This document shows positions 57,415 to 62,297 of a DNA stretch of 64,000 nucleotides, piece after piece. Each line of letters starts with the position of its first letter. Positions within the stretch are counted from its first letter, which is position 1. Origin of the DNA: Corallococcus macrosporus DSM 14697 (GTDB lineage Bacteria > Myxococcota > Myxococcia > Myxococcales > Myxococcaceae); contig NZ_CP022203.1 in NCBI RefSeq assembly GCF_002305895.1, positions 7,288,001-7,352,000 of the forward strand. The letters are read 5' to 3'. The notes below the pieces were generated by a model. It searched no databases. It was given only the letters and a program-made list of their open reading frames with translations, and had not been told where the DNA came from. The position numbers and the translations under genes are program-made.

Positions 57415-58017
57415 TCAGCCGAAGGACAACAGGATGCCGAGCTTCGCGGTGGGTTCGATGTTGCTCAGGCTCCAGCCGTGGAAGCCTCCGGGCTCCAGCG
57501 CGTCGCGGAACTGCTCGTCCACGCCGACGATGCCGGGGCTGTAGAGCCGCATGATGCTGAAGCCGCCGCGCACGAAGAAGGTCAGCCGCCTCGGCGCCTG
57601 CCATTCGAAGCCCAGCAGGGCGCTCGCGTAGGAGTAGCCCACGCGCTCGAAGGAATGGATGGGCATCTGCGTGCGGTCCACGATGCGCCGCTCCAGGCCC
57701 TCGCCATTCGCGGGCCGCGCGTGGCCGGCCTCCAGCGTCAGCGCGGGCGTCAGGCGCCCCTTCAAGGGCAGCAAGGTGAGGCCCACCCGAGCCCCGGGGC
57801 GGACGCCGTTGTGCGTGCCGCCCACGTGGAGCCGGACCATGCGCGTGGGCCGGAAGGAGAGGGAGAGCCCCGCGCCCTCGGGTGCGCTGGCGTCCAGCAT
57901 CAACCCGAAGGGCGCCAGCCGCTCCGGGTCCTGCGTCCGCCGCTGGAGCCCCGTCGCGAGCGCGGTCTGCGCCGTGAGCATCACCCCGACCGCCGCCAGC
58001 GCGGACATCGCCCCCAT
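57415..58017 (-). CDS. Exported protein of unknown function, barrel-like
   Basis: This 200-aa protein uses ATG 58017, which has GGGAGG 6 nt upstream; the more distal ATG 58038 has none. The signal peptide (about 1-22) ends in ALA before Thr-Gly. The mature sequence alternates short strands with Arg/Gly turns (APEGAGLSLSFRPTRMVRLHVGGTHNGVRPGARVGLTLLPL...LTFFVRGGFSIMRLY), like a small outer-membrane barrel. No family is recognised. Its upstream region is the repeat-bearing C-rich stretch, so its promoter may lie in or before those repeats. Confidence 0.6.
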   Translation of the reverse strand: MGAMSALAAVGVMLTAQTALATGLQRRTQDPERLAPFGLMLDASAPEGAGLSLSFRPTRMVRLHVGGTHNGVRPGARVGLTLLPLKGRLTPALTLEAGHARPANGEGLERRIVDRTQMPIHSFERVGYSYASALLGFEWQAPRRLTFFVRGGFSIMRLYSPGIVGVDEQFRDALEPGGFHGWSLSNIEPTAKLGILLSFG

Positions 58018-58201
58018 GGACTGCCTCCCACGACTCATGACCACCACCCGGCCCCCGCCTGTCCTCCTGCCTCCACCACCCACCCGGCTGAAGCTACTGC
58101 TCGCCCGCCACCGTGCATCCGCGTCGCTGGCGCGCGCTGGCCGCTCGCCTGGTCAGCGCTGCTGAACGTCGCGCCCCCTCCGTCCCGCATGCGGTCGGGA
58201 A

Positions 58202-58483
58202 CCCGCCGCGCTCCGCCCCCACGAAGCGCGGCGGGCTCGCTCGTCACGCCCCCGCCGCGCTCCGCCCCCCTGCGAAGCGCGGCAGGCCCGCCCGTCCCCC
58301 CCCGCCCTGCTCATCAAACTGTCGTCGTGCATGACCTCGCCGGCTGGCACGGCCCCGCTGCGCTCCGCCCCCACGAAGCGCAGCAGGTCCGCCCGCCATC
58401 CCCGTCCTGCCCCCGACCCCGTCTGCGAGCCTGGTCCTGCCGGTCCGTCCATCGCCGCGCTCCGCCCCCACGAAGCGGCGGCG
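58202..58483. repeat. Four hairpin repeats with a conserved loop
   Basis: Each copy is an inverted repeat around the loop CCGCCCCCACGA. R1 is at 58202-58235 (arms CCCGCCGCGCT/AGCGCGGCGGG, perfect 11 bp, loop 58213-58224). R2 is at 58251-58286 (one mismatch, 14-nt loop). R3 is at 58354-58387 (arms CCCGCTGCGCT/AGCGCAGCAGG, one mismatch). R4 is at 58453-58483 (9 bp with a bulged G). R3 swaps a C-G pair of R1 and R2 for T-A in both arms, a compensatory change that argues for selection on the structure. R2 to R3 and R3 to R4 are 103 and 99 bp apart, and downstream C-rich flanks are also similar, so the true unit is about 100 bp. Nothing like it was seen elsewhere in the window. Confidence 0.75.
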
Positions 58484-58823
58484 TGTCCGCACCGCCCTGC
58501 TCCCCCCATCCCACCGAGGCCTGCCACCCCACCCCAGGCACCGCCTCGACCTCCGTCCCCGCCCCTGACATCCACGACGCGACGGCCTTCCACGCCCACC
58601 GTCCAACCCCATCCACCGGCCCGCGTCGCGCCGTGCCCAAGGCCATAGCATTCCGCATGCCGTGCCCAGGTCGCGCGGAAACACGAGCTATTTCCATAAG
58701 TTACAAGTGCCGGGGCGCAGGCGCGGCCAGCGAGGGCTGGGCGGGCCGGAAAAAACTACGCTCGCGGGCAGGCCGCGCCGCCCTAACGTGCCGGCCGACT
58801 GTCGAAGACTTGGAGAACCCGCC
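58484..58823. other. C-rich non-coding stretch before the TIG lipoprotein
   Basis: The plus strand remains strongly C-rich to about 58610 and then becomes mixed. Open frames here give low-complexity Arg/Pro/Gly translations and no family, so I call no gene. ATTTCCATAAGTTACAAG (58690-58707) is the most AT-rich spot and is where a promoter for the gene at 58824 could lie. Confidence 0.4.
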
Positions 58824-59909
58824 GTGCGTCTGCCGCTCGCCGTCACCCTGCTCGCCCTCACAGCCTGTTCGAAAGAGGACGTGAACCTGGAGATTCAGGT
58901 CCATGGCGTCGTCAACCCGCTCCACCGCGTCGTCACGCCCGCGCGCGTGTGCAATGCGCAGGGAGGCGCGAAGGGCTGGCGCATCGAGGTGACGGGAGCG
59001 GGGTTCCTGCCCTCCTACCGGTACTCCGCCACCAACGAGCTGATGGTGCTCCCGCCCGAGGTGACGCTGCGCGGCGCCACCTCCATCACCCTGCCCTCCT
59101 CACACGTCAGCAACCCCAGCCTCGAGCAGCTGTGGGTGGACGTGCCCACGCGCGACTCCGAGAACCCGATGCAGTTGCCGCCGGGCCTCTATTCGGTGGA
59201 GGTCAGCAACGACGCGGGAAACCGCGACGCGCTGCCGGATGCGCTCCAGGTCGTCCCACCACCCCACCTGACGCGGCTGGAGCCGCCGCCCTCGGGCTAC
59301 TCCCACCTCCACGACACGCCCATCGTCATCGAGGGCACCGGCTTCCAGCCCGGCACCTTCCCGCATGTCGAGCTGCGTCACGCGAGCCTGAGCGCCCGGC
59401 CCCTCGGCCCCGTCACGGTGGTGTCCGCCACCCGCGTCGAGACGGTGGTGCCGCATGACGCGAACGAGGGCGCCTACGACGTCGTCCTCCGCAACCCCGA
59501 AGGCTGCGCCGCGGTGCTGCCCCAGGCCGTCACCATCACCTACAAGCGGCTGGGCGCGCTGTCCGTCTCGCCAGCCGTCGGCCTCGAGTCGGAGAACACA
59601 CGCATCACGCTCAGGACCTCGCCAGAGCCGTGGGGACACGCCTTCTCGGGCACGCCGACGCTCTTCATCCTCGCGCCCCTGCGGGCCGCTCCGGCGCGGA
59701 TGGAGCGGATTCCCCTCCAGGACGTGACGCTCCTCTCCGACACCGAGGTCAGCGCGGTGGTCCCCGCCTGCACCGGCCTTCAGGCGCCTCCCGAAACGGC
59801 CCCTGGCTGTCCCGACGGAATCGCCACCGGAGGGCCGTACATCATTGAAGCGGTGGACCCGGGCGGCGCGTCGGGACGGATGCTGGGCTTCAGCGTCGTG
59901 CCTCCCTGA
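58824..59909 (+). CDS. TIG/IPT-domain lipoprotein
   Basis: This 361-aa protein starts at GTG 58824, with GGAG 8 nt upstream. A lipobox LTAC gives a lipid-anchored Cys near residue 15. The mature part has three to four Ig-like IPT/TIG modules; typical strands are IEVTGAGFLPSYRYSATNEL, PIVIEGTGFQPGTFPHVELR and VVPHDANEGAYDVVLRNPEG, each with the G(T/A)GF turn and a YDVVLRN-like closing strand. Such modules bind sugars or proteins or act as spacers. No enzymatic domain is present. It is monocistronic, convergent with a receiver-domain gene. Confidence 0.8.
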   Translation: MRLPLAVTLLALTACSKEDVNLEIQVHGVVNPLHRVVTPARVCNAQGGAKGWRIEVTGAGFLPSYRYSATNELMVLPPEVTLRGATSITLPSSHVSNPSLEQLWVDVPTRDSENPMQLPPGLYSVEVSNDAGNRDALPDALQVVPPPHLTRLEPPPSGYSHLHDTPIVIEGTGFQPGTFPHVELRHASLSARPLGPVTVVSATRVETVVPHDANEGAYDVVLRNPEGCAAVLPQAVTITYKRLGALSVSPAVGLESENTRITLRTSPEPWGHAFSGTPTLFILAPLRAAPARMERIPLQDVTLLSDTEVSAVVPACTGLQAPPETAPGCPDGIATGGPYIIEAVDPGGASGRMLGFSVVPP

Positions 59910-60917: not shown

Positions 60918-62297
60918 ATGCCGTCGCCCACCGAGCTCCACTTCGACTGCGGCACCCTGGTCGCGCCCTCCCTGCCGGAAGACGCCCGCCTGCGCGCGCT
61001 CTTCCAGAAGGATGGGCGCACGGGCGTCCACCGCGCGCCCGCGTGGCATTACCGCGAGGTGGTGCTCCGGCTGCGCGCGCTGGGCCTGCCCTACGACGAC
61101 AAGGCGAAGCGGTTCGAGCCGCTGGAGCTGCCGCTCGCCGTGCCCATCCAGCCCTTTCCCCACCAGCAGCAGGCGCTGGACGCGTGGACGCGCGCGGGGG
61201 GCCGTGGCCTGGTGGAGCTGCCCACGGGCGCGGGCAAGACGCTGCTGGCGGTGCTCGCCATCGCCCACGTGAAGCGGCCCGCGCTGGTGGTGGTGCCCAC
61301 GCTGGACCTGATGACGCAGTGGCAGGGCGTGCTGGCGCGCCACTTCGGAATCCCCGTGGGGATGCTGGGCGGCGGGGTGAATGACCGGCAGTCGCTGACG
61401 GTGACGACGTACGACTCGGCGGCGATGCAGACGGAGTTCCACGGCAACCGCTTCGGGCTGCTCATCTGCGACGAGTGCCACCACCTGCCGGCCCCCAGCT
61501 ACCGGTTCATCGCGGAGGGCTCGCTGGCGCCGTACCGGCTGGGGCTCACCGCGACGCTGGAGCGCGCCGATGGCGGCGAGCGCGTGTGCGAGGAGCTGCT
61601 GGGCCCCCGCGTACACCGCTCGGACATCCGGGAGTTGCAGGGCGAATACCTGGCGCCCTACGAGGTGAAGCGGGTGGAGGTCCCGCTGACGCCCGACGAG
61701 AAGGCGCGCTACGACACGGCGCGCGCGCTGTACCTCGGCTTCGTGCGCAGGCTGGGCGTACCGCTCTCCGCGCCAGACGGCTGGGCGCGCTTCCTGGCGC
61801 AGAGCCAGCGCAGCGACGAGGGCCGCGCGGCGTACCGCGCCTACCGCGAGCAGCGGCGGATTGCCCTCACCTCCAGCGGCAAGCAGGAGGTGCTGTGGCG
61901 CATCCTCCTGGAGCACCGCGACGACCGCGTCCTCGTGTTCACCGACGACAACGAGACGGTGTACACGCTGGCGCGCCGCTTCCTGCTGCCCGCGCTGACG
62001 CACCACACGCCGGTGCCGGAGCGCAAGGCGCTGCTGGCGGCCTTCGCGTCCGGGGAGCTGCCGGTGCTGCTGACCTCGCGCGTGCTGAACGAAGGCGTGG
62101 ACGTGCCCGAGGCCCGCGTGGGCGTAGTGCTCAGCGGCAGCGCGAGCGTGCGCGAGCACGTGCAACGGTTGGGGCGAATCCTGCGCAAGCGGCCGGGGAA
62201 GCGCGCGCTGCTGTACGAGGTGTGCTCCGCGCAGACGGCGGAGAGCAGCATCAGCGAGCGGCGGCGCCAGCACGGCGCCTACCAGGAGGGCGGCTGA
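60918..62297 (+). CDS. XPB-like SF2 DNA helicase
   Basis: This 459-aa protein starts at ATG 60918. An N-terminal damage-recognition-like domain (about 1-70) precedes the Q-like FPHQQQALDAW motif and Walker A PTGAGKT. Next come VVPTLDLMTQW (Ia), CDECHH (DEXH, II), LTATLERADG (III), FTDDNETVYTLARR (IV), LNEGVDVPEA (V) and QRLGRILRKRPGKR (VI). This is the layout of archaeal/bacterial XPB (RAD25) helicases. It is followed after 99 bp by a Bax1-like gene, the known partner of archaeal XPB. The pair is expected to open and cut damaged DNA in a nucleotide-excision-like process. Confidence 0.92.
   Translation: MPSPTELHFDCGTLVAPSLPEDARLRALFQKDGRTGVHRAPAWHYREVVLRLRALGLPYDDKAKRFEPLELPLAVPIQPFPHQQQALDAWTRAGGRGLVELPTGAGKTLLAVLAIAHVKRPALVVVPTLDLMTQWQGVLARHFGIPVGMLGGGVNDRQSLTVTTYDSAAMQTEFHGNRFGLLICDECHHLPAPSYRFIAEGSLAPYRLGLTATLERADGGERVCEELLGPRVHRSDIRELQGEYLAPYEVKRVEVPLTPDEKARYDTARALYLGFVRRLGVPLSAPDGWARFLAQSQRSDEGRAAYRAYREQRRIALTSSGKQEVLWRILLEHRDDRVLVFTDDNETVYTLARRFLLPALTHHTPVPERKALLAAFASGELPVLLTSRVLNEGVDVPEARVGVVLSGSASVREHVQRLGRILRKRPGKRALLYEVCSAQTAESSISERRRQHGAYQEGG

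Follow-up and report, generated by a model that had tools for sequence, protein, structure and literature searches.

The window analysed here, a stretch of 64,000 nucleotides from Corallococcus macrosporus DSM 14697, contains four stem-loop repeats in a C-rich region that an initial annotation described as gene-free. What do these repeats belong to? No gene is found inside the region, but the region itself is the upstream leader of a minus-strand gene (Table 1). In our best reading, the array is part of a larger thing, a repeat-built, G-rich and hypervariable 5' leader of an outer-membrane gene, which probably tunes the expression of that gene.

Table 1. Features of the array and its surroundings (positions in the window)
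Feature	Position	Strand	Remarks
Predicted 8-stranded outer-membrane β-barrel gene	57415-58017	-	ATG at 58017-58015; Shine-Dalgarno GGGAGG at 58029-58024
Putative 5' leader	58018-58636	-	About 620 nt, 51% G on the sense strand; predicted start site
Hairpin R1	58199-58238	-	Sense strand GAGCCCGCCGCGCUUCG UGGGGG CGGAGCGCGGCGGGUUC; covariance model match, 55.7 bits
Hairpin R2	58250-58285	-	One additional C-G pair; sense-strand loop AGGGGG; 38.4 bits
Hairpin R3	58351-58391	-	Compensatory C-G to T-A; 54 bits
Hairpin R4	58453-58484	-	One bulged G; 38.2 bits
Hairpin C	58519-58539	-	GCCTG/CAGGC stem, G-rich loop; family alignment
Sigma-54-type promoter element	58646-58662	-	CGGCATGCGGAATGCTA (GG-N10-GC); conserved in 29 of 29 genomes
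Conserved GGAAAAAACT...CCTAACG block	58748-58790	+	For the divergent gene; family alignment
Divergent gene	58824-59909	+	Lipoprotein-like start, repeated domains

Structure of the repeated hairpin

Re-scanning of the window places the four hairpins between 58199 and 58484. Three exact copies of the core CCGCCCCCACGA start at 58213, 58365 and 58462, and the expanded fourth copy occupies 58258-58282, just as had been annotated; the replacement of a C-G pair by T-A in R3 is likewise confirmed. The stems are genuine: hairpins of the R1-R3 class score 23-27, and the strong-hairpin count is three (R4, with its bulged G, pairs but scores under the cut-off), while 20 dinucleotide shuffles average 0.1, with a maximum of 1. 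Units of about 100 bp, as described earlier, account for two of the spacings (101 and 97); R1 and R2 are closer, at 51. The annotated loop of 12 nucleotides was a misreading, as CTCCG...CGAAG extends the stem and the true loop is the hexamer CCCCCA, or UGGGGG on the minus strand. There the stem and loop read CUUCG UGGGGG CGRAG, with a U.G wobble where the plus strand shows a C.A mismatch, and the core that does not vary between copies is GCTYCG-CCCCCA-CGAAGC. We know of no protein for the UGGGGG loop.

We scanned 60 scattered 20-kb pieces of the same genome together with the window, 1.26 Mb in total, and found 184 hairpins of similar score; outside the array, no 600-bp stretch of this sample holds three strong ones. 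When the whole leader is folded, R3 and R4 each fold on themselves, and R1 and R2, whose arms are nearly identical, also pair with each other, so that copy number may alter which structures form. In the family alignment, the best-conserved block between the array and the promoter is the one that holds hairpin C; this hairpin, like the type A hairpin, is retained over much of the genus. An upstream ORF behind the Shine-Dalgarno-like loop of hairpin C was considered and dropped, as the aligned leaders have no conserved start codon there, and a CRISPR-like array was set aside because the spacers themselves are related to the repeats.

The aligned copies prefer one strand. In type B hairpins, standard pairs make up 93.6% of cells when read as minus-strand RNA and 80.1% when read as plus; the minus strand pairs better because C.A mismatches of the plus strand are G.U pairs on it. 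Every one-sided change yields a standard pair via G.U on the minus strand, and two-sided changes also occur in these hairpins: pair 11-22 is found as U-A, U.G and C-G, pair 5-28 as C-G, G-C, U-A and U.G, and pair 13-20 as G-C and A-U. Pair positions with G.U number nine on the minus strand and one on the plus (P = 0.02). Other members of the genus have another type of hairpin (CTCCG...CGGAG) in a comparable position, and this one is 95.6% paired on the minus strand in an alignment of the stem arms alone, joined by four filler bases. Transitions outside the hairpins (A/G 46, C/T 72) follow base contents (purine 40%, pyrimidine 60%) and thus reveal no matching mutational bias, though the inside/outside comparison of strand preference is modest (P = 0.07). 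Compensatory changes and one-strand tolerance of G.U, which together characterize a conserved structured RNA, are both found here, in few independent events and small counts.

These observations bear out the proposal of a selected RNA or DNA structure, through covariation across copies and species and through the preference for the minus strand; folding of the minus strand as single-stranded DNA would leave the same G.U asymmetry. The alternative of an RNA read from the plus strand, with C-rich loops, was rejected on account of its poorer pairing. The fold of the 311-nt array has a z-score of -9.2 on the minus strand and -3.6 on the plus. Whole-leader fold energies were not accepted as general proof, because their z-scores are uneven between species, with the minus strand not consistently better (the G006 leader was shortened by a stray pattern match).

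A putative G-rich leader between a promoter-like element and a barrel gene

The product of the barrel gene matches no Pfam or NCBIfam family. Eight beta strands make up its AlphaFold2 model (mean pLDDT 74.8); among solved structures the closest ones, with weak scores, are outer-membrane barrels (for example CarO, OprF and OmpA domains). Upstream of the gene, the motif GGCAYG-N4-NTGC is present on the minus strand in all 29 genomes with an intact region, with the first T of TTGC replaced by A in most of them; a search of 1.2 Mb of this genome gave no match to the longer pattern GGCAYGN4NTGCTA. For M. xanthus, TGGCACG-N4-TTGC(T/A) has served as the sigma-54 consensus (PMC7910581), and the element agrees with this pattern in having GG and GC 10 nt apart within TGGCACG-N4-TTGCW. 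In the window, the usual GGCACGG copy is out of register, and an overlapping GGCATG-CGGA-ATGC (58661-58648) preserves GG-N10-GC. The genome encodes sigma-54, and the promoter is presumably active; neither an intrinsic terminator nor a sigma-70 promoter was found in the region. The predicted start near 58636 would place the array inside the leader.

The distance from the element to the gene varies in the 29 genomes from 75 to 1244 nt. Six genomes (G009, G025, G029, G008, G028, G075) have leaders of 75-113 nt that lack repeats and evidently do not need them. Leaders in most other genomes are 336-872 nt, reaching 1244 nt in the g14 genomes, and the long ones are packed with lineage-specific tandem repeats, of which the hairpin unit is that of the M. 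xanthus-like group. The G011 (L067) leader has an unrelated 66-75-nt tandem repeat in about five copies, with its own palindrome (CGACACACG...CGTGTCG); that of G024 contains a near-exact 98-nt tandem duplication; and the g14 leaders consist of degenerate 19/34-nt minisatellites of the CTGCCCCGTCCCGCCCT type, with related ones in g16.

Composition is retained through this turnover. In 29 of 29 leaders, G makes up 45-59% of the sense strand and C 19-26%, and four-tract G-quadruplex motifs occur in these leaders on the sense strand only. With a G fraction of 0.50, the leader ranks first among 247 upstream regions (mean 0.34, s.d. 0.04) taken from 1.26 Mb of this genome, where genes were called with a simple GC3-based finder.

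Possible function of the leader and alternatives

The order of promoter, array and gene, together with the pairing on the sense strand, makes a transcribed leader the best reading; transcription of the leader, and any effect of the array on expression, are what we infer from this arrangement. We propose, giving the idea about an even chance, that the barrel gene has a transcribed 5' leader to which the array belongs, and that the number of units sets protein output. Transcription from the sigma-54-type promoter near 58636 would pass through the array, and each transcribed unit would become an RNA hairpin topped by a UGGGGG loop. The leader would be a fast-evolving tandem-repeat tract, gaining and losing units by duplication and deletion while G-richness of the sense strand and RNA structure are kept. 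A strongly folded, G-rich leader whose unit number varies would be expected to affect elongation, mRNA decay or translation; most likely, its stable structures would work in cis, where they could slow RNA polymerase, protect the mRNA or hold back translation. The number of hairpins would then set the amount of surface protein, as a tandem-repeat rheostat. A leader bound by CsrA was also considered and rejected, the genome having no CsrA (no PF02599 match).

A precedent is known in Haemophilus influenzae hmw1A, where 7-bp tandem repeats are transcribed from the P2 promoter and more copies give less RNA and protein (PMC8262952). As in hmw1A, tandem repeats of varying copy number lie here between a promoter and a surface-protein gene, but the units are of about 50-100 nt instead of 7 bp, fold as hairpins, and follow a sigma-54-type promoter. 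Also, the effect on expression is known for hmw1A, whereas here the repeat variation is seen between species (one genome per species) and its effect would be by analogy. Structured 5' leaders and cis-regulatory RNAs of the kinds collected in Rfam likewise have conserved covarying hairpins between promoter and gene; unlike them, the present leader has no Rfam match, and its repeat sequence turns over while composition is kept. If the proposal is right, this leader of a surface protein in social, predatory bacteria has had its repeats swapped between genera with promoter, gene, composition and structure retained. Selection would then act, unusually, on the composition and structure of RNA and not on its sequence, and the locus would offer a case of repeat-tuned expression under sigma-54 that can be put to the test.

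The same observations could be explained without any benefit to the cell, and this we consider possible, though on the improbable side. The G-rich non-template strand past an active promoter may form R-loops and hairpins, leading to slippage, template switching and growth of a neutral minisatellite, with pairing maintained by hairpin-templated repair. G-richness of the leader sequence and its tandem growth could indeed be mutational in origin, and unrelated repeats of the same composition in different lineages, the G024 duplication and the tolerance of short leaders in some species all fit such a process. It accounts poorly for the strand preference of mismatches, which has no matching bias outside the hairpins (a modest effect, as given above), for the retention of both hairpin C and the type A hairpin in much of the genus, and for a leader composition far outside that of the genome's other upstream regions.

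A broader version of the leader hypothesis, which we hold as tentative and rather doubtful, is a family-wide class of leaders whose function would come from sense-strand G-richness and tandem structure, not from sequence. The promoter and the gene would be the same throughout, with UGGGGG-loop hairpins in one lineage and G-quadruplex-prone minisatellites in others, and repeat number would again be the rheostat.

The initial annotation had suggested a non-coding RNA with repeated modules. An RNA on the minus strand is indeed favoured, but its stand-alone form, which would start at the sigma-54-type promoter, end before the barrel gene and bind a partner in trans through its loops, is unlikely. 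Identical UGGGGG loops on varying stems and the strong fold would suit such an RNA; no terminator-like site, however, is found between array and gene, and in six species the promoter element is 75-113 nt from the gene, with little between. A 5' leader is the likelier form because the order of promoter, leader and gene holds in 29 genomes.

Protein-binding sites had also been suggested, and an array of DNA sites that bind a regulator of either divergent gene would agree with the invariant core and with the placement of the array between these genes. Such sites are quite improbable, since DNA binding would give no preference for G.U-compatible changes on a single strand and so leaves that asymmetry unexplained, and since the core is missing from most species that retain both genes.

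Distribution of the element and neighbouring observations

The annotation had called for a core search and a covariance model across relatives; both were carried out, and their outcome, a conserved single locus, favours an RNA. A search of the 8.97-Mb genome for the exact core gives three matches, all of them in the array. A covariance model was built from 12 copies, as the hairpin alignment holds only 12 related sequences; its E values are about 1e-5 or lower for the four array hairpins and 0.01 at best elsewhere in the genome. Membership in a REP/REPIN or MITE family, another early suggestion that the REP-like size of these intergenic palindromes might evoke, is rejected as hardly credible, because the element is present at one locus only, with this gap in E values, and the strongest off-locus matches in relatives (G022 and G011) are the same protein-coding sequence in both. 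REP/REPIN palindromes are short, GC-rich and intergenic, as are the present ones, but they occur as many dispersed copies (PMC3116915, PMC3733652), whereas here the hairpins stand in tandem at one locus per genome. No Rfam family was matched up to E = 1. Elsewhere in the genome, at L138:16281, there is a short tandem palindromic repeat, GTCGACAAGCCGTTC, unrelated to the array.

Among 27 members of the genus, the model matches the orthologous locus in G006, G007, G032, G027, G024 and G001, and it has one match in the more distant G034. Seven related genomes have 1-3 clear copies at the orthologous site; by genome, clear copies number four in G000, three in G024, two each in G006, G032 and G027, and one each in G007 and G034. 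The contig of G001 stops within the array, and that of G033 just before it. In a scan of public contigs, we found one true ortholog and four matches elsewhere; of these four, just one could be aligned to the window, over 30 bases. The contig BNCN01000001.1 (L078) bears the title Comamonas sp. KCTC 72670; it is collinear with the window, about 80-88% identical over 6 kb, and carries the hairpin; its label is probably wrong.

Draft genomes tend to break at this place. By contig-end distances tabulated by hand, 23 of the 38 draft assemblies that contain the gene end within 700 bp upstream of it, against 0.87 expected from contig numbers (G021, G023, G012, G005, G026, G001, G030, G033, G050, G051, G053-G055, G057-G061, G065, G071, G073, G074 and G077). 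Such repeated breaks at the orthologous leader mean that the locus is systematically missing from short-read genomes, a warning for anyone who works with such assemblies.

On the other side of the promoter element, the conserved GGAAAAAACT...CCTAACG block resembles an ECF-type promoter in sequence. For the divergent gene that follows, the orthologous sites of G006, G007, G032, G027, G024 and G033 yield no full match; the GGAAAAAACTAC promoter-like block is retained in those of the six with intact sequence, which suggests recent loss of the gene. Nearby, at 60918-62297, the window encodes an XPB/ERCC3-like helicase with a damage-recognition domain (Pfam PF18458, PF16203).
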